A stretch of 64,000 nucleotides of DNA from Bacteroidota bacterium (GTDB lineage Bacteria > Bacteroidota > Bacteroidia > Bacteroidales > FEN-979), in assembly GCA_026391795.1 (NCBI GenBank), contig JAPLDI010000020.1, forward strand, positions 1 to 64,000. The letters are read 5' to 3'. Made by a program: the position numbers and the translations under genes. Of this stretch, positions 34,061-58,123 are shown in pieces. The stretch's first letter is position 1; each line of letters starts with the position of its first letter. Below the pieces are notes generated by a model. The model was not told where the DNA came from. It was given only the letters and a program-made list of their open reading frames with translations, and did no database searches.

Positions 34061-34110
34061 TTTATGAGGAAAACATTCAGGCGGTGTGAGAAATTCATTT
34101 AGTATTAAAA

Positions 34111-34126
34111 TACTCAAATATGAGTA
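34111..34126. promoter_or_regulatory. Inverted-repeat operator site A (TACTCA-N4-TGAGTA)
   Basis: Perfect arms TACTCA and TGAGTA with a four-base spacer AATA. It overlaps a second small palindrome to its left (AGTATT-AA-AATACT, 34101-34114). Centre lies 70 bp upstream of the centre of TATCTTTA (34185-34192) and 45 bp from TAATTTTG (34160-34167), either of which could be the -7 box of the DUF4136 gene. One of six copies in the window. Confidence 0.6.
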
Positions 34127-34236
34127 GGGGATTATTGTTAAGGTATTCACATTTATAATTAATTTTGCTCTCAAAGGGTTAATGTATCTTTAATTCTGAT
34201 AGAAAAGTTGGTTATCAGGATTTTCACCGGACATGA

Positions 34237-34268
34237 TTCTTCTGTTGCAACAAATTGCAGCAGAAGAA
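34237..34268 (+). other. Strong hairpin in the leader of the DUF4136 gene
   Basis: TTCTTCTGTTGCAA pairs with TTGCAGCAGAAGAA around a CAAA loop: 14 pairs with one mismatch. No T tract follows, so it is not an ordinary terminator. It lies about 105 bases before the start codon and could stabilise or regulate the leader. Confidence 0.55.
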
Positions 34269-34373
34269 CCGGTTCCGGAAAACAATTTGATTGAGAATTC
34301 AGGAATTGCCTGTTAGAATGTTTATTAATCAATGAACTGAAATAAAACAATCATGTATTTAAATTGTAAATCT

Positions 34374-34985
34374 ATGAAAACAAAATTTGGTTTTTTAATC
34401 CTGGGACTGGGGCTTGTGTTTACCCTCGGCTGTACCAAGTATCCCCCTTCATCGGACAGGATAATGGAAGATCTGGCCGTAATAACACAGTACGACACAA
34501 AGGTCAATTTTAACAATTACAAGTATTATTCTATCGCAAACTCGGTGGTTAAAATTGACAACAAGGATACCACATACCTTACGAACACTACCGCAATGGC
34601 CATTCTTGATGAGATTTCAAAGAACATGGAGGCAAGGGGTTTTGTCAAGGCTGTGACTCCCGTAGTACCTGACTTTGGCATCCAGGTTTTGTATTACCAG
34701 AATACCACTGTCTATACCTATTCCTATGACCCCTGGGGATATTATCCTTACTGGGGTTATTACTATGCCTATTATCCCGTCTATTATTCTTCTTACACCA
34801 CCGGGCTGGCCGATATTGAGCTGGTTGACCTGAAGGTTACCGATCCAACCAATCACCGGTTGTACATTCGCTGGAATGCTTTTATCCGGGGCCTTCTCAC
34901 GGGCAGCCATACAACCTCTGAACTTACCGGAGCCGTTGACCAGGCATTTACACAGACCCCACAATTAATCACAACTGCTAAATAA
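34374..34985 (+). CDS. DUF4136 lipoprotein with Tyr-rich segment
   Basis: 203-residue lipoprotein counted from the ATG at 34374; lipobox LVFTLGCTK (Cys about residue 19). The mature part has the DUF4136 pattern: an N-terminal FNNYKYYSIAN motif, a conserved ...ISKNMEARGF helix, and a C-terminal WNAFIRGLLTG segment. In the middle is a striking aromatic run, YDPWGYYPYWGYYYAYYPVY (about residues 116-135). Family members are small envelope lipoproteins of unknown role. Followed after 21 bp by a barrel gene; operator site A and a hairpin lie upstream. Confidence 0.75.
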   Translation: MKTKFGFLILGLGLVFTLGCTKYPPSSDRIMEDLAVITQYDTKVNFNNYKYYSIANSVVKIDNKDTTYLTNTTAMAILDEISKNMEARGFVKAVTPVVPDFGIQVLYYQNTTVYTYSYDPWGYYPYWGYYYAYYPVYYSSYTTGLADIELVDLKVTDPTNHRLYIRWNAFIRGLLTGSHTTSELTGAVDQAFTQTPQLITTAK

Positions 34986-35006
34986 TAACACCTAAAAAGC
35001 ATTGCC

Positions 35007-35657
35007 ATGAAAAAGATATATTTAATCATCATACTGGTCTTTTTTGCCATGGGTGTTACCCGGGCACAGGAAAGCACATCACTGGGTTACAAACCTTCGG
35101 CCTATTATACCTTCTCCTGGAACAATACATTCACGATGGGGGATTTCAATAAATGGGTCAGCCAGCCAAGCATGGCCGGTTTCGACATCGGCGGCCGCTA
35201 TCTTTTACCCATAAAGGGACTGACAGCAGGGTTTAACATCAGCTGGCAGAGGGTTTCAAAACAATACGATAATCAAACCTTTACTGTTCCCGATAAGGGA
35301 ATTGCCATTACTGCCACAAATTACAGGTTCACCTGGATGGTTCCGTTCCAGGCGGTAATTGCCTATCATTTTATTCCCAATAAGATGGTCTCTCCGTATA
35401 TCGGCCTCGGAATCGGCGGGGATTATATGGAACATCACCTGCTTATCCAGGAATATGATATCTATAAGGAGGTCTGGGATTTCTCCCTCACGCCCGAAGT
35501 CGGCGCTCTTATAAAATTCGGACCCTTCTCCAACCTGGGAGCAATCATCGCTTTCAACTACAAATGGACAACCAACAAGATCGAGATCTACGAAACAAAA
35601 TCCAAAAACCTTCAGATGCTGAATCTCAAGGTGGGACTCGCGTATATTCTCAGGTAA
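35007..35657 (+). CDS. Outer-membrane beta-barrel protein
   Basis: 216-residue exported protein (signal peptide KKIYLIIILVFFAMGVTRAQ). The mature part shows alternating strands typical of an eight-stranded barrel: FSWNNTFTMGDF, AGFDIGGRYLLPI, AGFNISWQRVSKQ, WMVPFQAVIAYHFI, VSPYIGLGIGGDYM, IIAFNYKWTTNKI, LNLKVGLAYILR at the end. Follows the DUF4136 gene by 21 bp and is closed by a strong terminator, so the pair is one transcription unit. Function unknown. Confidence 0.72.
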   Translation: MKKIYLIIILVFFAMGVTRAQESTSLGYKPSAYYTFSWNNTFTMGDFNKWVSQPSMAGFDIGGRYLLPIKGLTAGFNISWQRVSKQYDNQTFTVPDKGIAITATNYRFTWMVPFQAVIAYHFIPNKMVSPYIGLGIGGDYMEHHLLIQEYDIYKEVWDFSLTPEVGALIKFGPFSNLGAIIAFNYKWTTNKIEIYETKSKNLQMLNLKVGLAYILR

Positions 35658-35681
35658 TTACATTCTTCTCTTTTCTTTTAC

Positions 35682-35717
35682 AGCCCCGGCAAGGTAGGAT
35701 TTGCCGGGGCTTTTTTT
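35682..35717 (+). terminator. Rho-independent terminator
   Basis: AGCCCCGGCAA pairs perfectly with TTGCCGGGGCT (11 bp stem, 8-base loop) and is followed by seven T. It ends the DUF4136 - barrel unit 25 bases after the stop. Confidence 0.9.
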
Positions 35718-35772
35718 GCAGGTGCTTTACACACTTTTATACTTGTCCCCTGGATTTTTTTCACCTCATGGA

Positions 35773-35927
35773 GTTGACTAAAAAGTAGTTTTTATTTTCC
35801 CACAGAGACTCGCTGATGAATCGCAGAGTTTAGCAGAGAATTGAGAGTATGATTTTTTACTCTGCGAAACTTAGCGTGAAACTTTGCGAAACTCTGCGTG
35901 ACATGTTTTTTTTACTTTTTAGTCAAC
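35773..35927. mobile_element. MITE-like element with 15-bp perfect terminal inverted repeats
   Basis: Ends are GTTGACTAAAAAGTA (35773-35787) and TACTTTTTAGTCAAC (35913-35927), exact inverses. Inside is a second inverted repeat built from CAGAGTTTAGCAGAG and CTCTGCGAAACTTAGCG-like arms. There is no coding capacity. Similar composite structure (weaker ends plus a hairpin core) is seen at about 43412-43535 and 48900-49008, so this may be a family of non-autonomous elements. No target duplication was identified. Confidence 0.55.
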
Positions 35928-36017
35928 CCCTGATGTATTTGAGTTATATACCAAACTCTTAAAATAGATTATATTTAATTCTGAGAAGCATCTCTTTTTG
36001 GGTTACTTTAGCACAAT

Positions 36018-36035
36018 ATACTCATCAATGAGTAT
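36018..36035. promoter_or_regulatory. Inverted-repeat operator site B upstream of the LuxR gene
   Basis: The best copy: ATACTCAT-CA-ATGAGTAT, eight-base perfect arms (the 16-bp core is TACTCA-N4-TGAGTA, 36019-36034). It lies 26 bp before the ATG of the LuxR-type gene. TACTTTAG at 36004-36011 resembles a -7 box, which would put this site over the transcription start and suggest autorepression. Confidence 0.65.
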
Positions 36036-36061
36036 TCTCAACTTTATCCGGACTGAAAAGT

Positions 36062-36808
36062 ATGGATTATTACTCTTTATTTTTTCAATTCATTAAAACA
36101 GGTCTACCCTCGGGTTATAAAAATATCGACCGGGATTCTTCCCAAATGCTTTATCTGGAGAAGATCATGAAAGAAAATAACCAGTTTTTCTTTGTTGCCG
36201 ATATTCTCCAGGTGAAGATCCTCTTTACCAGTAATAGCTGTGCTCCTTTGCTGGGTATCAGACCTGAAGATGTTGATCCCTCCATGTTTTTTACAGCCAC
36301 ACATCCCGATGATCTTCAACGCCACAGCCTGGCACGGGCAAAACTTTTCAGCTTGGGGCAGGAACTTTTTATTGAGCGAAAAGGTTTTAAAATAATTTCA
36401 ACCAATTTCAGGACCCGGCATAATACGGCTTCCTGTTCTAATATGCTTGTTCAGTGTTATCTGTTTTATACGGAAACACCCTATAACACTGTGTTTCTGT
36501 TCCAGGTTGTGACAAACGTATCCTGGTTCGGCAAGCTCAGGCATGGGTATCATTTTTATACAGGCGAAGACCTTTCAGTTTTCAGGTATCCGGATGAAAA
36601 TCTTTTAATGACGGGAAATGTTTTTTCCGACAGGGAATTTGAGATCATTAAACTGATCGCCTCCGGATTAAACAGTGAGCTGGTAGCAGAAAAACTCTTT
36701 CTCAGCGTTCATACGATCAACACCCATCGAAGGAACATCCTGAAAAAGACAGATAAATCGAACATTTCGGAGCTGATCTATGATCTGAAAGAGAGAGGGC
36801 TGCTTTAA
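36062..36808 (+). CDS. PAS-LuxR family transcriptional regulator
   Basis: 248-residue DNA-binding regulator. The N-terminal half looks like a PAS fold (FFVADILQVKILFTSNSCAP, GIRPEDVDPSMFFTATHPDDL, about residues 40-85), a probable sensor of an unknown signal. The C-terminal 62 residues are a LuxR-type helix-turn-helix: FSDREFEIIKLIASGLNSEL then VAEKLFLSVHTINTHRRNIL (about 188-230). No receiver domain is present, so it is not a classical response regulator. A perfect inverted repeat lies just upstream, and the same repeat recurs before five other transcription units out to 58 kb, making it the best local candidate for their regulator. Possible later starts at 36146 or 36167. Confidence 0.82.
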   Translation: MDYYSLFFQFIKTGLPSGYKNIDRDSSQMLYLEKIMKENNQFFFVADILQVKILFTSNSCAPLLGIRPEDVDPSMFFTATHPDDLQRHSLARAKLFSLGQELFIERKGFKIISTNFRTRHNTASCSNMLVQCYLFYTETPYNTVFLFQVVTNVSWFGKLRHGYHFYTGEDLSVFRYPDENLLMTGNVFSDREFEIIKLIASGLNSELVAEKLFLSVHTINTHRRNILKKTDKSNISELIYDLKERGLL

Positions 36809-36835
36809 ATCCCCGGGATTTGTGAAATATTTTAT

Positions 36836-36900
36836 AACCGCAAAGACGCCAAGGCGCAAAAATTGTACAATTATTTTGCGTCTTCGCGTCTTCGCGGTAA
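36836..36900. repeat. Inverted repeat of the GACGC/AAGGCGCAAA family
   Basis: ACCGCAAAGACGCCAAGGCG then CAAAA pairs with TTTTGCGTCTTCGCG then TCTTCGCGGT. Sits between the convergent LuxR and sulfatase genes and probably ends both transcripts. Same core as the hairpins at 43433-43507 and 48928-48992. Confidence 0.8.
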
Positions 36901-36913
36901 AAAGAGAATATCC

Positions 36914-39274
36914 TTATTTCCGTTGAATGTTCACATAGTTGATTTTGCCTGTAAACTTTGCTGAAACCCCGTAATCGGTCACCCAGGTTCCGTCATCAAC
37001 TCCGATGTCGGCCAGGTCATCCACTGAGAAGATCCCCGGCTGAGTTATTTCAATCCTGCCTTCAGCCACCTTTTTCCCATTTACAGTGATCGTCCCAAGG
37101 CCTCCCCTGCCCAGTCCGGCACCATCTGTCTTAAATTCATACACCAGAAGATAGTTTCCCGGTTTCAGTGGTTGTGAAGCAATGATCTGGCTTGATTTCA
37201 TCCCGAGGTAATTGTAGGTAAAAGCAGGTTTCCCGTTTTTAAGATAGAAAGAAAAGCCGCCAAAACGCCCGCCCTGGCATACGATCACACCGTTTCCTTT
37301 TGCATCTATGGCTACTTCCGAAGTGATTGTGTAGGACTTGCCCCTGAGGTCAATAAAAACATCAACGCCCATTCCTTTCATGCCTTCACCATAGGTCACT
37401 GTATTTCTGTTGCCCATGACCGTTGGTCTGCCCATAAGTTCGGCATTGGTCCTTTCCAGCAGCCGGTCGTCAAGCGGAAGAACATGATATTTTTCAGCCT
37501 CTTTCATAAACAAGGCCTGCATTTCTTTCAGTTTGTCGGGGTTTTGTGCTGCCAGGTCGCTGGCCAGGCTGAAATCTTCCTTTGTATTGTATAATTCCCA
37601 TTTATCATCCTGAAGGGTAGTGGCAGGTTTCAGTTTCCATGCCGGCCGGTGGATCGTCCGGGCAAACCAGCCATCCTCGTATACTGCGCGGTTGCCGAAC
37701 ATCTCGAAGTACTGAACTTTATGCTGCTCGGCTGCAGCAGCATCTTTGAAAGTATAAGCGAGGCTTGTCCCTTCGATCGGATCCTGTTCAATTCCGTTCA
37801 CCATTTTCGGTGCCGGTATCTTTGTAACTTCATAAATCGTAGGGGCGATGTCGATCACATGCCCGAACTGCGAACGCACTTCACCTTTTGCCTTGATCTC
37901 TGCGGGCCAGTTGATGATCATGCCGTTGCGTGTACCGCCAAAATCAGATGCCACCTGCTTGGTGTATGAAAACGGTGCATCCAATGCCACAGCCCACCCG
38001 GCTGAAAAATGCGGGTAGGTGCTGGGTCCGCCCCAGTCGTCATAATGCTTCAGCATGTCCGGAACGGTTTCGGCAATCCCGCTGAAATAGGTCATTTCGC
38101 TGTACATGCCGTTCATCTGTCCTTCGGCGCTGGCTCCGTTATCGCCGGCAATGAAGATCACGAGTGTATTATCCAGTACACCCAGGTCTTTAATAGCTGA
38201 AAGCAGTCTTCCGGCTTCATAATCGGTTTGTTCGGCAAAGCCGGCATAGACTTCCATCTGGCGGGTAAATAATTTTTTTTCATCGGACGAAAGTTTGTCC
38301 CAGTCTTTGATATCGGCAGGTTTTGGTGCTAGTTTTGTGTTTTGCGGAACGATCCCCAGTTTTTTCTGACGTTCCAGGGTTTCTTCGCGCAGTTTGTCCC
38401 ATCCCTGGTCAAATTTCCCTTTGTATTTTTCGGCCCATACCTTCGGAACGTGATGCGGTGCATGGGTTGCCCCCGGTGCATAATAGATGAAGAAGGGTTT
38501 CTCAGGTGACAAAGCCTGCTGGTAACGGACCCATGAAATGGCCTGGTTGGTCATGTCGGTTGTAAAGTGATAATTGGGATCCTTCGGGGTTTCAACCAGT
38601 GTAGAGCCATCGTAAATCAAAGGAGACCATTGATTGGTTTCACCACCTATGAATCCATAAAATTTCTCAAAGCCTGAACGTGTAGGCCAGCGGTCGAAGG
38701 GGCCCGAGTTTGAAATTTCCCAGGGCGGGGTCTCATGGTACTTACCGAAGGCTGCTGTGTTGTATCCATTCTGCCGGAGCACTTCCGCCATCGGTGTGAT
38801 GGATTGAGGCCTGACCCCGGTATTCCCGGGAAAGGTTGTGGCAGCTTCGGCAATGCAGCCCATGTTGTTGCTGTGGTGGTTATACCCGGTAAGCAAAGCC
38901 ACCCGCGTAGGCGAGCAAAGCGAAGTGGAATGAAAGCGGTTATACTTTAACCCGTTCTCAGCAAGTTTGTCCATGACCGGTGTTGTAACAGGTCCGCCAA
39001 AAGCCTCGGATACCCCGAAACCCATATCGTCTATTAATATGACTACCACATTGGGAGCGCCCTTCGGTGGTGTCACATGAAAGCGTGACGGCGGAGTTGC
39101 GTTGCGCGCATCCAGTTCTTTATAAGTCGGACGGATGGGTTCTTTAATGGGAAGAACCGTACGGTCAGGTTCACCGACAGCGCTCTTTTCTGCGTCGGTC
39201 GATCCGGTTCCTGGTTTCTGGTTGCAGGAGACCAGGATCCCTGCAAGCATAATTGCTGTAATAAGATGTTTCAT
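36914..39274 (-). CDS. Arylsulfatase (lipoprotein, cysteine-type)
   Basis: 786-residue sulfatase exported as a lipoprotein (lipobox GILVSCN, Cys about residue 16). The sulfatase signature with the residue that becomes formylglycine is LCSPTRVALLTGYNHHSNN (Cys about residue 120), and metal ligands appear in VVVILIDDMGFGVS (about 73-86) and FIAGDNGASAEG. The length is that of the large arylsulfatase group with a C-terminal beta-sandwich (about residues 640-786, ending in FTGKINYVNIQRK). It would hydrolyse sulfate esters of unknown substrates; being Cys-type it needs a formylglycine-generating enzyme, none of which is seen in the window. A sulfotransferase lies 6 kb away. Confidence 0.9.
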   Translation of the reverse strand: MKHLITAIMLAGILVSCNQKPGTGSTDAEKSAVGEPDRTVLPIKEPIRPTYKELDARNATPPSRFHVTPPKGAPNVVVILIDDMGFGVSEAFGGPVTTPVMDKLAENGLKYNRFHSTSLCSPTRVALLTGYNHHSNNMGCIAEAATTFPGNTGVRPQSITPMAEVLRQNGYNTAAFGKYHETPPWEISNSGPFDRWPTRSGFEKFYGFIGGETNQWSPLIYDGSTLVETPKDPNYHFTTDMTNQAISWVRYQQALSPEKPFFIYYAPGATHAPHHVPKVWAEKYKGKFDQGWDKLREETLERQKKLGIVPQNTKLAPKPADIKDWDKLSSDEKKLFTRQMEVYAGFAEQTDYEAGRLLSAIKDLGVLDNTLVIFIAGDNGASAEGQMNGMYSEMTYFSGIAETVPDMLKHYDDWGGPSTYPHFSAGWAVALDAPFSYTKQVASDFGGTRNGMIINWPAEIKAKGEVRSQFGHVIDIAPTIYEVTKIPAPKMVNGIEQDPIEGTSLAYTFKDAAAAEQHKVQYFEMFGNRAVYEDGWFARTIHRPAWKLKPATTLQDDKWELYNTKEDFSLASDLAAQNPDKLKEMQALFMKEAEKYHVLPLDDRLLERTNAELMGRPTVMGNRNTVTYGEGMKGMGVDVFIDLRGKSYTITSEVAIDAKGNGVIVCQGGRFGGFSFYLKNGKPAFTYNYLGMKSSQIIASQPLKPGNYLLVYEFKTDGAGLGRGGLGTITVNGKKVAEGRIEITQPGIFSVDDLADIGVDDGTWVTDYGVSAKFTGKINYVNIQRK

Positions 39275-39363
39275 GGTTTGCGCCGGTTAAATGTTATTAC
39301 CTATTAACAAAATTTAATTTTTTAAGTGAAGGCAGGAATTTCAACGCATATAAGCCGGTATCG

Positions 39364-40029
39364 CTATTGCTTTTTGGCGTATTCGAAGTTGGTTAATTTC
39401 ACATTGACCTTAGGGCCGGGCAGTTCGATGGCTACATTGGTAACCCGGTTTGTCCCGTTCACGGTTTCGTAATTCACTTTTGCCTTAATGGGGTCACCGC
39501 CCATAACGGTTGAGATGTCCTGCGACTGATAGAGTAGCGTAGACTTATCGAATTTGTAAATCAGGCGGTCGCCGGGATTCAGGATATTGGCTGCATCGGC
39601 CTGGATGGCATTGCCCTGCTCCGTGAGGGTTCCTTTGTTAAAAAGGTCTACCATCTGACCCTGGCTGAGTATAATATACCTGCCTACCAGTTCAACTGCG
39701 TTCTTCACATATTCATTAACGTCCGACACGACACTTTTCTGCACCTTTCCCCTGATTCCCCGTTTCTTCTCTACGTAGGATTGCTGGGAGATCACGATGG
39801 CGACCAATTTCATATCGGAGCTCAGGGTTACCGAACTCACAGACGACATTGCCGGGTTCCCGTCAACAAATCCTTCCATTTTCCGTTTCCACTGGAGTTG
39901 GGACAGGTTACCGAGGTTCTGGGCATACTTTTTTGAAACGTTCAGACCCATCTGGGTTTTGTCAACCTGGGCGAAGGATCCGGGAAGAAGTAATGCCATC
40001 ATTCCGAAAAAAGCGATCAGTTTTTTCAT
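39364..40029 (-). CDS. Exported protein of unknown function
   Basis: 221-residue secreted protein (signal peptide KKLIAFFGMMALLLPGSFAQ). The mature part is mixed helix and strand with a repeated lysine/glutamine pattern (GNLSQLQWKRKMEGFVDG, SDVNEYVKNAVELVGRYIIL); no known domain is recognised. TAAATTTG (40056-40063, minus strand) is a good -7 box, and operator site C lies 71 bp beyond it, in the divergent region shared with the Omp85-like gene. Function unknown; its regulation is the informative part. Confidence 0.6.
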   Translation of the reverse strand: MKKLIAFFGMMALLLPGSFAQVDKTQMGLNVSKKYAQNLGNLSQLQWKRKMEGFVDGNPAMSSVSSVTLSSDMKLVAIVISQQSYVEKKRGIRGKVQKSVVSDVNEYVKNAVELVGRYIILSQGQMVDLFNKGTLTEQGNAIQADAANILNPGDRLIYKFDKSTLLYQSQDISTVMGGDPIKAKVNYETVNGTNRVTNVAIELPGPKVNVKLTNFEYAKKQ

Positions 40030-40055
40030 TGTGTTTCTTTTTATTTTTTATGCAT

Positions 40056-40063
40056 CAAATTTA
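40056..40063 (-). promoter_or_regulatory. -7 promoter box (TAAATTTG) of the exported protein gene
   Basis: Exact TAnnTTTG match on the minus strand. Centre to centre it is 71 bp from operator site C, matching the 70-bp spacing seen at sites A and D. Confidence 0.5.
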
Positions 40064-40120
40064 ATCAATTTATTTTCTACTTGGAGAGAACCTCCTCTTC
40101 CGGATCCGTATTTGGTTTAA

Positions 40121-40140
40121 AATACTCATCTGTAAGTATT
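40121..40140. promoter_or_regulatory. Inverted-repeat operator site C (divergent region)
   Basis: AATACTCA-TCTG-TAAGTATT (core 40123-40138); one arm differs from the consensus by one base. Lies between the divergent genes starting at 40029 (minus) and 40283 (plus): 71 bp from the minus -7 box and 44 bp from the plus one. Confidence 0.58.
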
Positions 40141-40170
40141 GTAGCTTTCAAATTTGTGGAATTAAAGAAA

Positions 40171-40178
40171 TATATTTG
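40171..40178 (+). promoter_or_regulatory. -7 promoter box (TATATTTG) of the Omp85-like gene
   Basis: Exact TAnnTTTG match 104 bases before the ATG at 40283; a TTTG at 40153-40156 is nearby. The long leader contains a weak GGAGG/CCTCC pair at about 40220-40255. Confidence 0.45.
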
Positions 40179-40282
40179 TTCCTTAATTCAGAACAACGAA
40201 TGCTATCCGTATAAGGGATTCACCCGGAGGGGCAATTTTCAATTATAAAAGGCCTCCCTTCATCCATTAAAGAAAGGAAAGA

Positions 40283-41764
40283 ATGAAAAATTATTTTACA
40301 CTTGTTGCTTTGTTTCTTCTTGGTTTTACCCTGAATTTAAAAGCCCAGAACAAAGATGGCTCCAGCAAGGTTCCCGATACACTGGATGTTCCGTACATTA
40401 AAATTTCCGGTTTTGAGATTACAGGGAATAAGCTTACGAAGCCAGGCATCCTGATCCGGGAGCTGGATTTCAAGATCGGGGATACGCTGGCAACGTTTAA
40501 AAAGGGGCGAGGGCCAAATTTCTCCGACCGGAATTTTTACCCGGGCGATTCCAGCGAATTGCGGCTCCGGATGCAATACAGCCGCGAGAACCTGATTAAT
40601 ACGAAGTTGTTTCTTCATGTCGACCTTTCCCTTAAAAAGATCAGCAGCAAAGAATACACGCTGATGATTGACGTTACGGAACGGCACTACTGGTGGCTTT
40701 TCCCCATCGCCAAGCTGAATGCTCCCAACTTCAATGAGTGGCTCCGCGACATCCAATGGTCGGACCTGAGCATGGGATTGTTCTTCAGTCATAACAACCT
40801 GTTTGGCCTCAATCACCAGACCTCCATCATCGCGCTGGCCGGTAAGTCATGGGCGATTGCTGCCGGGTACAAGATCCCCTGGATAGGCAAGGGGAAAAAG
40901 GTGGGTCTCCTCATGACCGCAAAATATTCAAACTTTTATACCGTCGAATATGCTTCGGTTGAGAATAAAAGGCAGATGCTCTATGCATACAACAGCACCC
41001 AGGAGGTGAAGCTCGGGGCAAAGCTGACCTTACGCCCCGGGCTTTACAACTACGGAACCATACATGTTACCGGAGATTATATCATGGTTTCCGATTCCTT
41101 GCTGAAGCTCGACTCAAATTACCTGGCGGGACATAAAAAAGTAAATACTTCGATCTCCCTTTATGCCGATTATTACTACGATAACAGGAACGTCAAAAAT
41201 TACCCCCTGAAAGGGAATCTTCTCCGGGTCTTCATTGACAAGGTCGGGCTGGGACTTGTTTCCAAAGATATCGACCTGTTCCGATACGGGATCGATTTTC
41301 ATTTTTACCAGACCATCGGCAAGAAATGGTATGTGGCAGAGATGGTGAAGGCTGAAAACTCGGCAGGTGAGAATGCCCCCTATTTTTACCAGCTCAACAT
41401 GACCCAGGGTAAGGATTTCATCCGAGGATTTGATCTCTACACCCTGAAAGGTGACCAGATGTACTTTTGCCGGAACAACATCAAATTTGAACTTATCAAA
41501 CCGAATGTCAAGAAAGTGAAGGAGGGCGAGGAGAAAAACAAGTTCAAGGCCTTGCAGTATGCCTTCTATCTTAATGGCTTTGCCGATGCCGGTTACTGCG
41601 TAAACAAATTTACCGACGTCAATCCTTACAACAACAAGTTGCTCATGAGCTGGGGACTGGGGATCGACTTTGTGACCTATTACGACCTTGTTGTCAGGTT
41701 TGAATATGCCTTCACCTCCATCGGGACCAATGGCTTCTTCTTCGGGTTTGGAATGCCCATCTGA
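40283..41764 (+). CDS. BamA/TamA-like (Omp85) outer-membrane protein
   Basis: 493-residue exported protein with signal peptide (YFTLVALFLLGFTLNLKAQ). Residues about 35-125 form a POTRA-like domain (ISGFEITGNKLTKPGILIRE), followed by a roughly 350-residue barrel ending in an aromatic FFFGFGMPI; one POTRA rather than the five of BamA. It resembles single-POTRA Omp85 proteins whose substrates are often unknown. The promoter box at 40171 and operator site C upstream suggest regulation together with the divergent gene. Confidence 0.75.
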   Translation: MKNYFTLVALFLLGFTLNLKAQNKDGSSKVPDTLDVPYIKISGFEITGNKLTKPGILIRELDFKIGDTLATFKKGRGPNFSDRNFYPGDSSELRLRMQYSRENLINTKLFLHVDLSLKKISSKEYTLMIDVTERHYWWLFPIAKLNAPNFNEWLRDIQWSDLSMGLFFSHNNLFGLNHQTSIIALAGKSWAIAAGYKIPWIGKGKKVGLLMTAKYSNFYTVEYASVENKRQMLYAYNSTQEVKLGAKLTLRPGLYNYGTIHVTGDYIMVSDSLLKLDSNYLAGHKKVNTSISLYADYYYDNRNVKNYPLKGNLLRVFIDKVGLGLVSKDIDLFRYGIDFHFYQTIGKKWYVAEMVKAENSAGENAPYFYQLNMTQGKDFIRGFDLYTLKGDQMYFCRNNIKFELIKPNVKKVKEGEEKNKFKALQYAFYLNGFADAGYCVNKFTDVNPYNNKLLMSWGLGIDFVTYYDLVVRFEYAFTSIGTNGFFFGFGMPI

Positions 41765-43276: not shown

Positions 43277-43292
43277 TACTTATTATTGAGTA
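43277..43292. promoter_or_regulatory. Inverted-repeat operator site D (TACTTA-N4-TGAGTA)
   Basis: Core TACTTA-TTAT-TGAGTA; one substitution from the best copy. It lies 70 bp upstream of the -7 box of the FadL-like gene on the minus strand. Confidence 0.58.
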
Positions 43293-43411: not shown

Positions 43412-43535
43412 GGTGTCTCAAAAGCCATTTTTCACCGCTAAGACGCAAAGACGCAAAAAATAATTTTATTGATTTTCTTTTCTTTGCGCCTTAGCGTCTT
43501 AGCGGTGCAGAAGAAATTTCAGACTTTTAAGCCAA
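43412..43535. mobile_element. MITE-like hairpin element
   Basis: Core inverted repeat CACCGCTAAGACGCAAAGAC paired with GCGCCTTAGCGTCTTAGCGG then TG (43433-43507). The outer flanks GTGTCTCAAAAGCC and (right side, inverted) GGTTGGCTTAAAAGTC are imperfect inverted ends resembling those of the element at 35773-35927. Confidence 0.5.
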
Positions 43536-49745: not shown

Positions 49746-49761
49746 TACTTATTGATAAGTA
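49746..49761. promoter_or_regulatory. Inverted-repeat operator site E (TACTTA-N4-TAAGTA)
   Basis: TACTTA-TTGA-TAAGTA, perfect inverted arms. The centre is 50 bp upstream of the centre of TATATTTA (49800-49807) before the ZIP gene and about 71 bp from a loose -7-like sequence before the divergent PepSY-like gene. Confidence 0.6.
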
Positions 49762-49799: not shown

Positions 49800-49807
49800 T
49801 ATATTTA
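49800..49807 (+). promoter_or_regulatory. -7-like box (TATATTTA) of the ZIP gene
   Basis: One mismatch to TAnnTTTG; identical octamer at 58062-58069, each exactly 50 bp centre to centre from an operator site. Confidence 0.4.
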
Positions 49808-49838: not shown

Positions 49839-50576
49839 ATGCTGAATGCATTTTTATGGGGCTTTCTGGCAACCTCCTCCCTGATCATCGGAGGCATCCT
49901 GGCCTCGCGCTTCTCAATCGGGAGGCGGCCCCTCGGGATCATCATGGCATTCGGTGCCGGTACCCTCATCTCAGCGATCTCCTACGAGTTGATTTTCGAG
50001 GCTGTAAAACTAGGCAAAGGAACCGGGTTTCCCGGGTTTGGCCTGGCAGCAGGAGCGTTGACTTTTTATTTCGCCGATATGCTGATCGGGAAGATGGGTG
50101 CCATGAAAAAAATGTCGGCCGGGGCTTCCCAGCAGTCGGGGCTCGTAGTTCCCATGATGCTGGGCATCATCCTCGACGGGATCCCCGAATCCATCGTCAT
50201 CGGCCTCGGGATCTTTGAAGGGGGAAAAGTAAGCATTGCCATGCTGGTGGCGGTTTTTATTTCCAACCTGCCGGAAGCACTTGCAGGATCGACGGGAATG
50301 AAAGCTGGCGGCTGGAAAAGGAAAAATATATTTTTTCTCTGGCTGGTCATTGCCTTGGTGTGTGCACTTTCAACCGTAGCTGGCTTCAGCCTGTTCAGTG
50401 GTTTATCCGTGCTCTGGTTATCATTTATCCAGGCTTTTGCCGGGGGTGCCATCCTCATGATGCTTGCCAATTCAATGATGCCCGAGGCTTTTGAACATGG
50501 GGGGAAGCTGGCCGGGATTTTCACTGTGCTTGGTTTTGCAATTTCTGTGTTAATGGTTATCCTGGAAAATATGTAA
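49839..50576 (+). CDS. ZIP-family metal transporter with altered metal motifs
   Basis: 245-residue membrane protein with about eight hydrophobic segments, the size of ZupT-like ZIP permeases that bring Zn2+ or other divalent ions into the cytoplasm. The two family signature positions are HNxPEG; here helix 4 reads LDGIPESIVIG (about residues 109-119) and helix 5 reads SNLPEALAGS (about 140-149), so both histidines are replaced (Asp and Ser) while Pro-Glu stays. Substrate may differ from Zn2+. Monocistronic, with operator site E and a -7-like box upstream. Confidence 0.75.
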   Translation: MLNAFLWGFLATSSLIIGGILASRFSIGRRPLGIIMAFGAGTLISAISYELIFEAVKLGKGTGFPGFGLAAGALTFYFADMLIGKMGAMKKMSAGASQQSGLVVPMMLGIILDGIPESIVIGLGIFEGGKVSIAMLVAVFISNLPEALAGSTGMKAGGWKRKNIFFLWLVIALVCALSTVAGFSLFSGLSVLWLSFIQAFAGGAILMMLANSMMPEAFEHGGKLAGIFTVLGFAISVLMVILENM

Positions 50577-51724: not shown

Positions 51725-51767
51725 GGATATTTATTGAATGGTGATTTATCAATTTAGCAGACAGAAT

Positions 51768-51775
51768 CAAAATTA
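51768..51775 (-). promoter_or_regulatory. -7 promoter box (TAATTTTG) of the DUF481 gene
   Basis: Exact TAnnTTTG match on the minus strand, 44 bases before the ATG at 51724. Confidence 0.4.
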
Positions 51776-52061
51776 GCAAAAAAAACTTTCATGCCAGAAC
51801 AATATTTGTAAAGCAGGAAGAGCCAGAACTGATTTATTGGCATGACCGGAGAAACATTCAACTCCCAGTTCAAGTCGGGGACGTTGATTCAGAATATCGA
51901 AAATCGGATTCATCTTCTCCATCAGAAAATCATACTGCTCCCTCCCTGGCCCTTGAAAGATTTCGTATCTCTATTTTCATTGATCCGAATCAGGTTTTCC
52001 ACGTGTAGACGTGCTGGAATTCAATCCCGTGAAGGTTTGTTGAATAATTTAATGGATTCAA
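51776..52061. other. Intergenic region without a recognisable gene
   Basis: No signal peptide, domain or repeat was recognised. A 75-codon open frame on the plus strand (51842-52069) has no family features and no promoter-like box, and is probably chance. Confidence 0.6.
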
Positions 52062-52134
52062 TTAGTTAGCGGAATCTTTCTTGTGAGATTTCTTCAGACA
52101 ACAGAAAGGCGGGGTGAACAGCATTATACCAAAC

Positions 52135-52887
52135 TCAAGCCCCGCACCCTTTGAAGTCGTAAATTCCTGGCCATAGGTCAGGGCGAACACTGCATATTGA
52201 AGTCGTAAATTCCTGGCCATAGGTCAGGGCGAACACTGCATATTGATTGGGTTCCCAGCGCAAACCGACTTTGTATTCCGGGAGAGCTACCGCCTGACCA
52301 ACAGAACCAAAAACTTCCCCTGCGATGCACCACTTAAAGCTGAAGGGATAATATGCCAACCGGGTAGAATAAGTGAATGCCCAGGCCGGGTTGCCTTCGT
52401 ACCCGTATTTTGTTGTATAACTTGCTCCCGGCATAAGATCCCAGGAAAGCCTGTTCTTGAAAAAGGGAATTGTCACCGGCGTATTTACCCAGTAGGTGTT
52501 GAATGCATCCTGCAGGCTGGTGCTGTCGGTATGCAATCCGGGGTCCTGGCCTGTACCGCCCTTGAATGCGACCCCCCCGGTCTGCGCCTTATTTTCGTAC
52601 AACATCCATTTGAAATAAAAGGTTGTGGAATACCCGTCATCGGTATTCCGTTTGTGGTCAGTATTAAAAATATAAACGGCTGTTGTGAACTCCCACCTGG
52701 GAATTAAGGAAAAGGTAGTCATGAATATATCGCTTGCCTGGCCGGCTGTAAGAATTACGGTTGCCATGCCGCAGGGCTTCGACAGGTAGTTATCGGAATT
52801 GTACTGCTGTCCCCGGACCAGGTTGCAACTAAGGAATACGAGTCCAAACAGTATTGCTCGTTTGAATTTAACCATATTACATATCAT
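52135..52887 (-). CDS. Outer-membrane protein with C terminus altered by a tandem duplication
   Basis: 250-residue exported protein (signal peptide FKRAILFGLVFLSCNLVRGQ; ATG at 52887 or 52875). Strand-rich mature part (MTTFSLIPRWEFTTAVYIF, YSTTFYFKWMLYE, LSWDLMPGASYTTKYGYEG, LAYYPFSFKWCIAGEVFGS, YKVGLRWEPNQYAVFALTYG) fits a barrel. A 46-bp perfect tandem duplication (52151-52242) shifts the frame after QEFTTS, giving the tail ICSVRPDLWPGIYDFKGCGA and an early stop. With one copy removed, the frame continues ...TTSKGAGLEFGIMLFTPPF and ends at 52062, a normal barrel-like C terminus. So the gene is probably damaged. Function unknown. Confidence 0.65.
   Translation of the reverse strand: MICNMVKFKRAILFGLVFLSCNLVRGQQYNSDNYLSKPCGMATVILTAGQASDIFMTTFSLIPRWEFTTAVYIFNTDHKRNTDDGYSTTFYFKWMLYENKAQTGGVAFKGGTGQDPGLHTDSTSLQDAFNTYWVNTPVTIPFFKNRLSWDLMPGASYTTKYGYEGNPAWAFTYSTRLAYYPFSFKWCIAGEVFGSVGQAVALPEYKVGLRWEPNQYAVFALTYGQEFTTSICSVRPDLWPGIYDFKGCGA
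52151..52242. repeat. 46-bp perfect tandem duplication
   Basis: Two exact adjacent copies, 52151-52196 and 52197-52242, each starting TTGAAGTCGTAAATTCCTGG. The length is not a multiple of three. Located in the 3' end of the minus-strand barrel gene, where it changes the reading frame. Confidence 0.95.
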
Positions 52888-52926
52888 AAATTGAACGTTA
52901 TTGCTTTTTGCCCGACCGGGTACCTG

Positions 52927-54015
52927 TTATTTTACATTTGCCTGTTCCCATGCCCTCACATCCTTTCGTGCTTTGTCAAATAATCTTTCGTAATTCTTTT
53001 TCAGAATTTTTTCACGTGCCTCGGGGGTAAGTGCAAGCCATAAGGGATCGTAAATGTGATATATTTCAAGGTGTTTCTCCTGGCTTGTTGGCGCAACATT
53101 GTCGGTGCCGAACAGGAACCTGTCAGGGTACTTGTTAACCAGATACGCTGAATTACTAAGCGAAGTGGCACTTGCCACAACGTATTTTGCCACCTGGTCC
53201 CAGGATATATCAATGTATAAATTGTTATAAGCAGGATCAGACAACATTTGTTCAAACGGAGTCAGCATATCTTTCAGCGGAGCCACGATCCTCCCTACTC
53301 CAACATGCGCCCAGATGATGGTTGTTTTGGGATGTCGTTTGATCAGCTCTTTCATCCCGTCGAGATAGTTTGGCTTTCCTGCTTTTGGAAAAGGATTATC
53401 GATGTCGTTATGGATAAGCGCAACCAGGCCAACCTGTGCGCAAAAGTCAAGGATACTGTCCAAAGCTGGATCATAAAGGCTGGCAACTTCGCCGTCAATT
53501 TTGGAAGAGACAAATTCTTTATGTATGCTGAATTCGCCGACTCCGGAAAACACACCCGGAAAGGTTTGCAGTACCCTCCGGATATGGGCGGCAGCATACA
53601 TATCGGTTGGATTGAATCCCGTGATCATGGGATCAAGCCTCTCCTGCTGCTCCTTTGGAAGTGACTTGTAAGCCATGGCAATATAGGCGTCCGTAAAAGA
53701 GTAATAATAGAGGTGTGCATCGGTTTCAAGGTAATAGGTCGGTGCAAAATCCTTCGTGACCCTGTACGACCATTGCTGCTGGAGTGGAAGTCCGAACAAG
53801 GTTGACCGGCCGATCTTGTCACCCATAATTTCATTCACATAGACATGAATATCCGTTCCTTCCTGGATGTAGTTGGTCAGGTGAAAATGACTGTCATTAA
53901 AAAGATAGCTGTCGGATTTATTGCTATCCTTTGTCTGCTGCGCATCTGTTTGATTAATTGCTGTGAATTGAAATAACAGAGCTATCAGAAAAGTGTAAAA
54001 TATTTTTTGTCTCAT
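52927..54015 (-). CDS. Exported amidohydrolase (Amidohydro_2 family)
   Basis: 362-residue TIM-barrel metal hydrolase with signal peptide (FYTFLIALLFQFTAINQTDAQ). Metal-binding motifs: N-terminal HxH in FNDSHFHLTNYIQEG (about residues 46-48), VALIHNDID (about 205), TIIWAHVGVGR (about 235) and the late Asp in DRFLFGTDNVAP (about 302). The fold matches the decarboxylase/hydrolase group (ACMSD-like). Substrate not known. Lies 39 bp downstream of the barrel gene on the same strand direction order 54015 to 52927, then 52887. Confidence 0.8.
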   Translation of the reverse strand: MRQKIFYTFLIALLFQFTAINQTDAQQTKDSNKSDSYLFNDSHFHLTNYIQEGTDIHVYVNEIMGDKIGRSTLFGLPLQQQWSYRVTKDFAPTYYLETDAHLYYYSFTDAYIAMAYKSLPKEQQERLDPMITGFNPTDMYAAAHIRRVLQTFPGVFSGVGEFSIHKEFVSSKIDGEVASLYDPALDSILDFCAQVGLVALIHNDIDNPFPKAGKPNYLDGMKELIKRHPKTTIIWAHVGVGRIVAPLKDMLTPFEQMLSDPAYNNLYIDISWDQVAKYVVASATSLSNSAYLVNKYPDRFLFGTDNVAPTSQEKHLEIYHIYDPLWLALTPEAREKILKKNYERLFDKARKDVRAWEQANVK

Positions 54016-54096
54016 GAGAGAAGATGTTAGTGTTTATAATAAGTTTAGTAAGTCTATCTCTTTTGGGTTAAAGCCCTGTTTGTGGAGCCTGTGTCA

Positions 54097-54156
54097 TACC
54101 CCGGCCTTAAGGCCGGGGTACTTGAAAATTTACAACTTATGGACGTTAGTCCATAA
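54097..54156. repeat. Double-hairpin REP-like element
   Basis: Two inverted repeats in tandem: TACCCCGGCCTT-AAGGCCGGGGTA (54097-54120, 24-bp perfect palindrome) and TTATGGAC-GTTA-GTCCATAA (54137-54156). Together they look like a repetitive extragenic palindrome between the amidohydrolase and porin genes. Confidence 0.75.
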
Positions 54157-54195
54157 CTCATGAATCATTTCAATAAATGGGATCAATCATATTCA

Positions 54196-55536
54196 CTATA
54201 ATAAAATATCCGTACCTATTGTCAGTGTCGTACCCGTTTGCCCTGATGTATACAATCCGAAGGTTCCGCCACCGGCAGATTTAACAACATACATTGCCTG
54301 AAGATTGATTCTCCAGCTGCGTGTTTTCAGGGGATAGATATTAAATCCCCCACCGGCTTCCCATGGGTATCTCTTGAACTGATCGATCAGCATCGAGTTG
54401 ACCCCGTAAACGCAAAGAATCTTCGGAACAGCCATATAAAGCACCTGCAGGGAATACCCATTATCATTAATATAGCCGACAGGGACAGGCCCATCTGCAT
54501 CAAACTTTGAAAGTGTACGGTAATAAAATTCGGAATGCAAGGCAAATCCTTTGATTTTAAAACCCAGGTCGACCGATACAATGTCATAATTTGCTTCCTG
54601 CACTGTTACATTGGAGGCAAGCGCGCCGGTTTCAAAAAAGAGCACACCGTCTGACATACGGACCTGTGTATTATCGGGGCTGGGTGTTCCGGTATTGTTA
54701 AAGCGGTTCTCACGGCTGTGGCAATACGAGGCCCCGAAACGGGTGGCTATTTTTTTATGGTATTCAAAGTCACCGTTTCCACCCCTTGGACCAAATTCAC
54801 CTGTGGTCGGCATCCAGTTCAAGGAGATGCTCTTTGAGAAATGCCGGGTAAGATTCGATGCCTTTATTCCAAGAATGCTCAGGTTGTTTCCAAGGACCAT
54901 GGTATAACGCAACTTTGGTAAAACTTCCCCCATTACAAATACGCCATTGGTAAATCCTCCCCGCAATCCATCTTCAGCCATGGACCTGTCGGTAGAAGAA
55001 AAGAACGGGAATGCTCCCTGTACACTTCGGATACAGACATTCGGGGTCATTCCGGCGCCAACGGCGACATATTTATTAAACCGGTACACTACGTTACCAA
55101 AAACAAGGGTTTGCTGTGTTGTGGTAACTGTCCACACGGCCAGCATGTAGGTCAGCTTTGGGGAGCCTATAAATCCGGTAAACCATATCATGGCGCGGTG
55201 CCAGTAGATATCATTTCTTCCGTCGAAAGTTCTCAGGCTATCTCTGTGGTCAGTCCATGTAGATGAGCCCGGCATCTGGTTTACCCACCTGGCCATACCA
55301 TATGCACTGATGTTCAAACTGCCAAACTTCGATTTAACAAGCTGAAAGCCTTTACCCGGAGTGAATTCACCGCTAGCCATGTTTTTATAGGTCGAGTCAA
55401 GTTCAGGTACGTTAACCTGCTGCGCCTGAACAGCGTATGAAATAAAAACGAAAATGAATACAGCGGCTGGCAGTCTTGAAATACCAGCAATTTGTTGAAT
55501 AAGCGTAATCTTCGAATTAAGCAGATATCGTTTCAT
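54196..55536 (-). CDS. Porin-like outer-membrane protein
   Basis: 446-residue exported protein; signal peptide ends at about residue 38 (AAVFIFVFISYAVQAQ). The rest is a large barrel resembling phosphate-selective porin O/P-like proteins of Bacteroidota: FGSLNISAYGMARWVNQ near the N terminus, AMIWFTGFIGSPKLTYMLAV, GFALHSEFYYRTL, NLQAMYVVKSAG, and a final TLTIGTDILL. One of three large porin-like proteins in 54-61 kb. The family alignment is uncertain. Confidence 0.65.
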   Translation of the reverse strand: MKRYLLNSKITLIQQIAGISRLPAAVFIFVFISYAVQAQQVNVPELDSTYKNMASGEFTPGKGFQLVKSKFGSLNISAYGMARWVNQMPGSSTWTDHRDSLRTFDGRNDIYWHRAMIWFTGFIGSPKLTYMLAVWTVTTTQQTLVFGNVVYRFNKYVAVGAGMTPNVCIRSVQGAFPFFSSTDRSMAEDGLRGGFTNGVFVMGEVLPKLRYTMVLGNNLSILGIKASNLTRHFSKSISLNWMPTTGEFGPRGGNGDFEYHKKIATRFGASYCHSRENRFNNTGTPSPDNTQVRMSDGVLFFETGALASNVTVQEANYDIVSVDLGFKIKGFALHSEFYYRTLSKFDADGPVPVGYINDNGYSLQVLYMAVPKILCVYGVNSMLIDQFKRYPWEAGGGFNIYPLKTRSWRINLQAMYVVKSAGGGTFGLYTSGQTGTTLTIGTDILL

Positions 55537-55648
55537 ATGTTATCTATGGTTTTTAATGCTTAAAATTTCACTTTTATAAAAAGGGAATACACAATGATTA
55601 AGGATAAGATCATGGTATATTCCCTTTCAAGAGAATCTGATAACTTTT

Positions 55649-56686
55649 TTATTTCGGCTGGATCAGGAATGGATTCACCTTCAATTTTTCCACTACATAT
55701 TTAATGACAAGTTGTGCTTTTACGCTATTCCCTGCTGCATCCAGCGGAGGAGAGACCACGGCAATGCCGAATTTTCCGGGACAAACGGCCAATAAACCAC
55801 CCCCCACGCCACTCTTCGCCGGGAGACCGGAATTGTAATACCATATCCCGGAATCGTCATAAAGACCCGCAGTGGCCATCACCGGAAGTGTATACAGAAC
55901 GGTTTCCTGGCTAACAACCTTTTTCTTTGTCAACGGATTGACCCCGCCGTTAGCAAGGGTACCCGCCATAGTGGCAAGGTCCTTCGCATTCACATTCAGG
56001 GCGCATTGCTTGGTATAAATATCCGTTGCCTGCACCGGGTCGAAATACATTCTTCCGTAAGCCAAAAGGAGATGAGCAATCGCCTGGTTGCGCAGGTTAT
56101 CGCCTGCTTCGCTGATATATACCGGCATGTTCAGGGAGAGCTGCCGTCCGGCGAAAGCGCTTTGCACATCAACAATGTGTTTCCATTTGACGGCTGAATC
56201 CTTACCTGCAACAAGACTGGTGGCGGCGATGGCGCCTGGATTTACAAGCGGATTGATCTCTTTCCCTCTCATCCTCTCAATAGCAACAATCGAGTTGAAA
56301 ACCTCTCCTGTAGCATCTACGCCGATCTTGTCCTGGATTGCCTGGTGCCCCAGTTCTTCAATGTCCTGTGCCATTGTAAAGACCTTTGAGACACTTTGAA
56401 TTGACACTTTGGAATCAATATCTCCTTTGGTAATAACCTGTCCGTCGGCTGTTACCACTGCAATGCCGAAGATTTTCGGGTCCACTGTAGCAAGTTCCTT
56501 GATATAATCGGCATTCTTACCCTCTTTCACATCTTTGAATTTGGCGTAGGCCTCATCCAGTGCAGCTTGGATTTTTTCTTTGGTCAGTGCGTTGTCCTGT
56601 GCCTTGATAATGCAAGGATGAATGAACATGATCAGCGAAATTGTCATGACCAGCAATACGCTGGTCCGGGTCATGTAATTTTTCAT
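55649..56686 (-). CDS. glsA: Exported glutaminase (GlsA family)
   Basis: 345-residue glutaminase with an N-terminal signal peptide (LLVMTISLIMFIHPCIIKAQ) that most bacterial GlsA lack, so it probably acts in the periplasm, converting glutamine to glutamate and ammonia. Recognised regions: catalytic Ser-Lys in VSIQSVSKVFTMA (about residues 93-105), GEVFNSIVAIERMRGKEINP then LVNPGAIAATSL (about 127-158), and FGIAVVSPPLD near the end. The serine beta-lactamase-like fold is expected. It lies among porins and an exported amidohydrolase, suggesting extracellular amino-acid scavenging or acid resistance; this is inference. Confidence 0.87.
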   Translation of the reverse strand: MKNYMTRTSVLLVMTISLIMFIHPCIIKAQDNALTKEKIQAALDEAYAKFKDVKEGKNADYIKELATVDPKIFGIAVVTADGQVITKGDIDSKVSIQSVSKVFTMAQDIEELGHQAIQDKIGVDATGEVFNSIVAIERMRGKEINPLVNPGAIAATSLVAGKDSAVKWKHIVDVQSAFAGRQLSLNMPVYISEAGDNLRNQAIAHLLLAYGRMYFDPVQATDIYTKQCALNVNAKDLATMAGTLANGGVNPLTKKKVVSQETVLYTLPVMATAGLYDDSGIWYYNSGLPAKSGVGGGLLAVCPGKFGIAVVSPPLDAAGNSVKAQLVIKYVVEKLKVNPFLIQPK

Positions 56687-56757
56687 ACTGTTTTCTCCTT
56701 TTTTATTGATGGTGAACCATGTTGTTATTTATCCGGAAAGTCTTTCAGAAGAGTGTG

Positions 56758-58008
56758 CTATTTTTTAGCATAAAACCTCTTTGAAAAACTGTATTTAAAT
56801 GTAAAGTTGATCTTTGTGGCCTGCGAGGTAAAGGGGGAGGTCTGGTTTGCAGTCACATCTGCCATGTAATTTTCGCGATAGATCCACTGGAACTCAGCTC
56901 CGACCATCACACTGGGCCAGGGATAGTAAAGCAGGTTGGCTTCTACAAAATGGCCAAGGTGATAGGCGGTAGACGCCTGCCCGTCTGAATTGGTGATCGT
57001 GGTGTTTGACCAGCCTACCGAGCTCGTAAATTTCTTGCTCCAGTTCAGGTCGACAAATGCCACAAGACCCAGGTCAGGAAGTGCAACTCCTTTAATGGGT
57101 TTTGTCTTGTCGCCGGGGTTTTTCTGGATCCCGATATCTACCGGAGCATCGTTAAAGTAGTTCTCCACACCTGCTCCGTAAATGCCTTGCAGGTGCAGCA
57201 CCACAATCTTACCGATGTTAAGACCGGTACTTAAGCTGACACCCCAGCCGATGGCATTGCCGCTGAGGTCCATGGTATCCAGGTGGGCCTGGTCACCCTG
57301 ATCCTTCCAGCCGATGTAGCGGGCCATGCCGCCCAGCTGAACATAGCCCCATTTCTTTCCCGTATAGCGGTAATGACCGGAAAGGTCAGGATAAGGGAAA
57401 TGTGCCTTAACACCGGTCAGTTCCACACGGTCGGAATAAACGCCTCCGTCGCCACTGGCACCCGGCATCTCGAGCGCAAAAACAAGGAAATGGTGTTCTT
57501 TCATGACCGGCATATAACGCACCTGGATGTTCCTGTAGAAAAGCATTCCGCAGGGGCCCCAGTATTCAAGCGTGTTCGGGAAAACGTCGAGGTCCATGAA
57601 GGCGCTCTCCGTCTGACCCGCACCCCAGTGACCCAGCTGTCCGTATGCATGCCTCAGCCGAATCGTTGTTTGTCCAGCGTTCGCTCCTACCCCGAACATA
57701 TCAAAATCAAACACCGTTTTGAATTCGCCCCACTTGGTATGCATCGACGATTTTACGCCAAACCGCGACTGACGTACACTGAAATAAAAATTTCCGTCGG
57801 TCCCGAATTCGTTGGTGTAGGAAGGCAGCCTGGAAGGCCGCATGACATCGTACCAGTCGGGATTGACCTGGTTGAAGTTGTAACCCATATCTGTCTGTGC
57901 AAAGCCGTACACTTCAAACCATTTTGAACTGTCGGACTGTTCCTGTGCCAGCCCTTTTGAGGCAACAGCAAAAAACAGCAAAGCAAAAAGTAATCTGGTT
58001 GTTTTCAT
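56758..58008 (-). CDS. DcaP-like porin
   Basis: 416-residue exported barrel; signal peptide LLFALLFFAVASKGLAQ. The start of the mature protein, WFEVYGFAQTDMGYNFNQV, and the RQSRFGVKSSMHTKWGEFKT then DFDMFGVGANAGQTTIRLRH region match DcaP-family outer-membrane channels, which admit anionic compounds such as dicarboxylates. The C terminus ends in FTFKYSFSKRFYAKK. A -7-like box (58062-58069) and operator site F lie upstream, so it probably belongs to the same regulon as the genes at 34-50 kb. Confidence 0.78.
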   Translation of the reverse strand: MKTTRLLFALLFFAVASKGLAQEQSDSSKWFEVYGFAQTDMGYNFNQVNPDWYDVMRPSRLPSYTNEFGTDGNFYFSVRQSRFGVKSSMHTKWGEFKTVFDFDMFGVGANAGQTTIRLRHAYGQLGHWGAGQTESAFMDLDVFPNTLEYWGPCGMLFYRNIQVRYMPVMKEHHFLVFALEMPGASGDGGVYSDRVELTGVKAHFPYPDLSGHYRYTGKKWGYVQLGGMARYIGWKDQGDQAHLDTMDLSGNAIGWGVSLSTGLNIGKIVVLHLQGIYGAGVENYFNDAPVDIGIQKNPGDKTKPIKGVALPDLGLVAFVDLNWSKKFTSSVGWSNTTITNSDGQASTAYHLGHFVEANLLYYPWPSVMVGAEFQWIYRENYMADVTANQTSPFTSQATKINFTFKYSFSKRFYAKK

Positions 58009-58061
58009 ACGCAGGTGGTTAGTTGGTTTGTAATAATTTTTTCAAAACAGGATATAATCAG

Positions 58062-58069
58062 TAAATATA
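58062..58069 (-). promoter_or_regulatory. -7-like box (TATATTTA) of the DcaP-like gene
   Basis: Minus-strand TATATTTA, the same octamer as before the ZIP gene, also 50 bp centre to centre from its operator (site F). Confidence 0.4.
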
Positions 58070-58107
58070 TTGAGATTTGAATTTTCTTTCAACGGCTGAT
58101 ACGAAAA

Positions 58108-58123
58108 TACCTATAAATAAGTA
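58108..58123. promoter_or_regulatory. Inverted-repeat operator site F (TACCTA-N4-TAAGTA)
   Basis: TACCTA-TAAA-TAAGTA; the weakest copy, one internal mismatch between arms. Located 100 bp upstream of the ATG of the DcaP-like gene. Confidence 0.5.

Follow-up and report, generated by a model that had tools for sequence, protein, structure and literature searches.

The 64,000-nucleotide (nt) stretch analysed here (the window; contig JAPLDI010000020.1 of the Bacteroidota bacterium assembly GCA_026391795.1) carries six intergenic copies of an inverted repeat, TACTYA-N4-TRAGTA, one of them just before the gene of a one-component regulator with a GerE/LuxR-type domain, and this raises the question of which protein binds these sites and which genes they control. 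The sites are probably operators of that regulator (PAS-GerE, 36062-36808), which is predicted to control its own gene (luxR) and nearby envelope genes, a reading drawn from the computed sites and their clustering, from the way both site and spacing are conserved, and from the architecture of the protein.

All six sites, designated A to F, were found where the initial annotation had placed them (Table 1), and none overlapped a crude map of open reading frames (ORFs; ATG ORFs of at least 100 amino acids (aa)), by which 89% of positions 34000-64000 is coding. The proposed motif is exact at sites A to E (TACTYANNNNTRAGTA), while site F carries one mismatch, and five exact matches were reached in 0 of 100 dinucleotide shuffles. 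The first 34 kb, described as free of sites, proved nearly so, the sole match at up to two mismatches being one at 26787 with two mismatches. The whole genome (3.76 Mb; G000, with the window contig as C23 and other G and L numbers denoting the other genomes and loci compared) was found to contain six exact copies, all on C23, namely sites A to E and a copy at C23:74126 (site G), situated 10 kb past the end of the window and 5' of a 253-aa ORF with a signal-like start. That all exact copies lie on one contig around the luxR gene was counted in favour of the regulator as the binder. The genome-wide search thus bore out the exact motif but not its looser form, for which an excess was rejected: 15 sites were found at one mismatch, against 35 for a reversed control. 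As the one-mismatch motif falls below its control, the evidence lies in the exact form and its clustering, and not in overall frequency. For the variant TACYYA-N4-TRRGTA, 22 of 27 genomes had fewer sites than the control gave; G000, G013, G042 and G124 exceeded the control, and G003 equalled it.

Written as heptamers, site B reads TACTCAT-CA-ATGAGTA, a 7-2-7 inverted repeat. This is the layout described for operators of the Escherichia coli regulators NarL and NarP, inverted heptamers with 2 bp between them (PMC7419079), and the NarL heptamer is given as TACYYMT (PMC4886647). This heptamer is matched by both halves of sites B, E, F and G and by a single half of sites A, C and D. An inverted repeat of the NarL type suits a GerE/LuxR helix-turn-helix (HTH) protein.

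The regulator was identified as such a protein by its GerE domain (PF00196; E 4.2e-12, 46 bits against a cut-off of 23.5). Its placement among PAS-LuxR proteins, which carry an N-terminal PAS domain, comes from structure, as an AlphaFold2 model (predicted local distance difference test score 90) matched PAS structures over residues 34-158 and GerE structures over residues 185-248; by sequence, PAS_3 remained below its cut-off (E 0.0053). GerE and this weak PAS_3 were its only Pfam matches, and neither a receiver domain with a phospho-acceptor nor the autoinducer-binding domain of acyl-homoserine-lactone LuxR receptors was among them. The GerE domain superposed on the NarL-DNA structure 1je8 over 63 residues (regulator 186-248 on NarL 154-216, root-mean-square deviation 1.3), with Arg224 falling on NarL residue 192, which we take to contact DNA; the NarL paper looked at does not name this residue. 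In sequence, the best match with a solved structure (E 7.5e-25), which was also the top Foldseek match, was Protein Data Bank (PDB) entry 3clo from Bacteroides thetaiotaomicron, annotated as a putative LuxR-domain regulator and approximately 20% identical to the window regulator; a literature search yielded no function for it.

Between site B and the ATG of luxR lie 27 nt, a gap first given as 26 bp. In G003, a genome of the same genus with a 73% identical regulator orthologue, the corresponding site TACCTAATAATAAGTA ends 31 nt 5' of codon 2 of the alignable frame, compared with 30 nt for site B. Transcription of luxR is predicted to begin within or next to site B, which suggests autorepression, and the site is, on sequence grounds, probably an autorepressor site of luxR.

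The remaining sites were examined for their distance to -7 boxes of the Bacteroidota promoter. The initial annotation had proposed centre-to-centre distances of 50 or of 70-71, two helical turns apart. The value of 50 at sites E and F was confirmed, both being situated 38 nt from TATATTTA, while relatives gave the 70-71 class no support; the pairings it had mentioned as alternatives are favoured instead, with centres at 45 for site A (33 nt) and at 44 for site C (32 nt, plus side). Among nine site-gene pairs from G000, G003, G018 and G024, five had an exact TAnnTTTG at 32-33 nt and one had it at 38 nt, and sites E, F and G had TAnnTTTA at 38, 38 and 37 nt, respectively. The 32-33 nt cluster was reached in 0 of 5000 shuffles, for pairs that were picked after inspection, a set that excludes sites B and D as well as the boxes of G003 at luxR and before the sulfotransferase gene. 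Across 43 genomes of the family, the site with a box at 31-39 nt was found at ten promoters in seven genomes, including A and C and two in G003, with controls giving 1 and 1, in a single genome.

Spacing is also conserved between orthologues. G003 was found to keep boxes at its orthologues of luxR, of the DUF4136 gene and of gene 40283, and a one-mismatch box there also precedes a sulfotransferase gene. Before the DUF4136 gene, the spacing is 33 nt in both genomes, between TACTCATCAATAAGTA and TATATTTG in G003 and between site A and TAATTTTG in the window; before gene 40283, the G003 site lies 38 nt from TACATTTG, and site C 32 nt from TATATTTG. Being palindromic and intergenic, the sites could be read as RNA hairpins, repeat elements or other non-operators; however, they precede -7 boxes by distances that recur, and conservation of both site and box stands out from poorly conserved flanks, which makes this explanation highly improbable. 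An action of site C on the minus-strand gene, as had been proposed, was rejected: G003 keeps its box on the gene-40283 side, and its copy of the minus gene (L074) has no box even at up to two mismatches.

Also counted in favour of the regulator is that three further genomes of the genus (G001, G002 and G004) contain neither a close regulator homologue nor TACTYATNNATRAGTA, their counts of TACYYA-N4-TRRGTA being 0, 4 and 0. Orthologues of gene 40283 were identified in 16 of 149 genomes, which include all six in which a PAS-GerE protein was matched at E<1e-60 (G000, G003, G013, G021, G036 and G042).

Several observations weigh against assigning the sites to the PAS-GerE regulator. G018 and G024 keep the box before gene 40283 (33 nt from TATATTTG in G018, the box having one mismatch; 32 nt from TAAATTTG in G024) and no PAS-GerE gene was found in either, the examined gene-40283 copies of G013, G021 and G036 have no upstream box despite the regulator, and, in the flanks searched (350 bp upstream, 250 bp downstream), no box at up to one mismatch accompanies the homologues that are 49-54% identical (L101-L104). 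Furthermore, site D has no -7 box at any conserved spacing, the two spacing classes lie approximately half a helical turn apart, which is hard to fit to one activation geometry, and the start codon of the G003 regulator orthologue is uncertain. The situation in G018 and G024 may be due to regulator loss, draft gaps or a different binder.

The last of these would correspond to a different member of the GerE family, such as a response regulator, binding the sites, with the PAS-LuxR gene merely one target. In addition to G018 and G024, this has in its favour that seven proteins of the genome match GerE over the Pfam cut-off and that response-regulator-type GerE genes elsewhere adjoin TACC-N8-GGTA boxes. 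At the seven GerE loci of G000 (L016-L022), however, the boxes found with up to one mismatch adjoin the two PAS-GerE genes, apart from one in L016 without a -7 box, and G011 has nine GerE matches yet no box upstream of its gene-40283 orthologue; we regard such a binder as unlikely. Less likely still is that the second PAS-GerE protein of the genome, encoded on C27 and 48% identical to the window regulator, shares or takes over the sites: it has the same architecture and its own upstream box (L084:10874-10889, TACTTGATTTTAGGTA, 23 nt from TAAATTTG), but no exact site of the genome lies on C27.

The PAS-GerE regulator of the window was further compared with relatives across the phylum. In G013, G021, G036 and G042, boxes near regulon genes are mostly TACCTA-N4-TGGGTA and mostly lie 23 nt from TAnnTTTG or a one-mismatch form of it, with their centre near -42, over the -33 region; such boxes would be placed as for a class II activator. 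Some of these boxes have no -7 box (L091 2143 and L089 30, the latter at a contig end), and five exact tandem box pairs were found 32 bp apart, which may be compared with the paired NarL sites described 33 bp apart at ogt. Over 84 loci (1.29 Mb), TACYYA-N4-TRRGTA with TAnnTTTG occurred eight times at 23 nt and at none of the other 50 spacings between 10 and 60, seven of the eight matches being already known from the earlier spacing survey of the four genomes. With the shorter core TACY-N8-RGTA, 19 matches were found at 23 nt, four at 22 nt and at most one elsewhere, and reversed cores gave at most one at any spacing. A search of 296 genomes of the phylum with the 23-nt pattern yielded 11 matches in seven genomes, against one match for the control.

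Boxes with up to one mismatch were found near 11 of 29 PAS-type GerE entries (those whose profile match begins no later than position 46; six within 350 bp upstream and five within 250 bp downstream) compared with 5 of 53 other GerE entries (two and three, respectively); two of the 29, L100 and L105, are from genomes already used for motif discovery (G003 and G036), and the scan behind these counts had random shuffles for its control. In a set of 30 loci, exact boxes occurred at five of 29, the window's own excluded, with six control patterns giving 0, 0, 0, 1, 0 and 0, and just one of the five is accompanied by a -7 box at about the 23-nt distance, namely at 22 nt. In a viral collection, four loci were found, with similarity confined to the HTH part. 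The initial proposal of a regulon over envelope genes is thus supported by the boxes kept at G003 orthologues, the 7-2-7 fit and the enrichment near PAS-GerE genes, while its 50-versus-70/71 phasing and its minus-strand target of site C were not retained.

In the recognition helix, the residue that follows THR, equivalent to NarL 192, was found to vary with the box. For 18 of 18 regulators with Lys, both halves of the nearby box read TACC, and for 8 of 10 with Arg at least one half read TACT, the exceptions being the second L079 protein and L112. This tally was made by hand from 32 rows, 28 of which were counted; the second boxes L079 4958 and L126 2496, L100 (same genome as L072) and L208 (Gln) were dropped, the mixed boxes of L072, L084, L107 and L113 were scored as TACT, for which at least one TACT half sufficed, and L205 and L206 look alike. 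Fisher's test gave p 1.4e-5 under an assumption of independence that fails. The identity of this residue thus appears to track TACC versus TACT, in a small, non-independent sample. We lean slightly towards a grammar shared by many GerE regulators of Bacteroidota, of both the PAS and the receiver type, in which an inverted TACY-N8-RGTA would lie 22-23 nt 5' of TAnnTTTG and Lys or Arg would choose TACC or TACT, with the genus of the window having moved its boxes 10 and 15 bp outward and switched to TACT. Searches of open-access full text brought up no operator code for Bacteroidota regulators of the GerE/LuxR type.

In the proposed mechanism, the regulator would act as a dimer that recognises the NarL-like 7-2-7 repeat with its GerE domains and responds to a signal perceived by the PAS domain. 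Sites A, C, E, F and G, approximately 52 or 57 bp 5' of predicted transcription starts, would probably serve to activate envelope genes, and site B, overlapping the predicted luxR start, would probably serve to repress or limit luxR. NarL differs in being a response regulator that is phosphorylated and carries a receiver domain, where the window regulator has a PAS-like domain, and the window promoters are of the Bacteroidota -33/-7 type, unlike those of NarL. The Vibrio quorum-sensing receptor VqmA, a PAS-LuxR protein, was among the structural matches of the model, but its site is described as a GG-N6-CC palindrome, unlike the window motif. PimM and PteF of Streptomyces, compared by description, have the PAS-LuxR architecture in common and are described as governing polyene biosynthesis. 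Several outer-membrane proteins of unknown role would thereby be tied to one sensor, and a fixed distance between box and -7 box together with a candidate specificity residue could make such regulons readable from genomes and open to single-residue and single-base tests.

Table 1. Predicted operators, promoter boxes and genes of the window.
Feature	Position	Strand	Remarks
Site A, TACTCAAATATGAGTA	34111..34126		Exact; 5' of DUF4136 lipoprotein and outer-membrane protein genes; G003 orthologue with same 33-nt spacing
Site B, TACTCATCAATGAGTA	36019..36034		Exact; at predicted luxR transcription start; same place in G003
Site C, TACTCATCTGTAAGTA	40123..40138		Exact; probable target gene 40283 (+); box also before G003, G018 and G024 orthologues
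Site D, TACTTATTATTGAGTA	43277..43292		Exact; between gene 41777 (-) and Omp85 gene 43558 (+)
Site E, TACTTATTGATAAGTA	49746..49761		Exact; 5' of ZIP-like gene
Site F, TACCTATAAATAAGTA	58108..58123		One mismatch; 5' of DcaP-like porin gene
-7 box TAATTTTG, site A	34160..34167	+	33 nt from A
-7-like box TACTTTAG, luxR	36004..36011	+	One mismatch; 7 nt 5' of site B; G003 has TATTTTTG, likewise 7 nt
-7 box TATATTTG, site C	40171..40178	+	32 nt from C
-7-like box TATATTTA, site E	49800..49807	+	38 nt; one mismatch
-7-like box TATATTTA, site F	58062..58069	-	38 nt; one mismatch
PAS-GerE (PAS-LuxR) one-component regulator	36062..36808	+	248 aa; GerE domain; PAS-like fold
DUF4136 lipoprotein, probable target	34353..34985	+	Domain match
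Outer-membrane beta-barrel protein	35007..35657	+	OMP_b-brl below cut-off; probably same operon as DUF4136 gene
BamA-like exported protein, probable target	40283..41764	+	TIGR03303 E 1.3e-8, far below its cut-off
ZIP-like transporter, probable target	49839..50576	+	Zip E 4.7e-6, below cut-off
DcaP-like porin, probable target	56758..58008	-	DcaP E 1.4e-16

A candidate small RNA was identified beside PAS-GerE genes at three loci (L112:10007-10190, L117:10625-10806 and L134:10262-10441), where a TACC box with a -7 box starts 3 nt past the PAS-GerE stop and is followed by approximately 140 nt of non-coding sequence that is strongly conserved and closes with a hairpin resembling a terminator (fold z -5.4 for L117). 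These TACC boxes were at one point taken for terminators; in view of a TAGTTTTG box 23 nt further on, they are now read as parts of promoters. The element is a candidate for an activator-controlled small RNA and would recall VqmA, described as activating the small RNA gene vqmR. It had no match in Rfam, nor in 295 genomes of the order of the window in a search made without a positive control.

Boxes of the form TACC-N8-GGTA, 23 nt from TAnnTTTG, were also observed 3' of other GerE genes (L122:1405, L126:1455 and 2496, L133:11293, L136:10312, L137:10660, L152:4532, L163:10249 and L164:3380), and several of these directly precede exported or porin-like ORFs. A conserved exported ORF of approximately 155 aa was found just 3' of TACC-box promoters in G021, G013 and G032 (L079:17375-17842, L087:232-696 and L092:4735-5202, respectively).

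Among relatives of the regulator, PAS-only paralogues of 195-198 aa that stop just before the HTH were identified at L080:7926-8513, L078:18322-18918, L088:7832-8419 and L083:4982-5569, and a sulfotransferase gene adjoins the paralogue in three of the four neighbourhoods checked by tblastn (L080, L083 and L088). A remnant of the PAS-GerE family is fused behind an unrelated ORF in G039 (L085:9578-10450), a genome in which no full-length copy was found. Within the window, the intergenic stretches 35805-35905, 36838-36900 and 43432-43508 were seen by eye to contain similar inverted-repeat-like sequence, variants of cgctaagacgcaaagacgc, one such stretch being situated between site D and the Omp85 gene.

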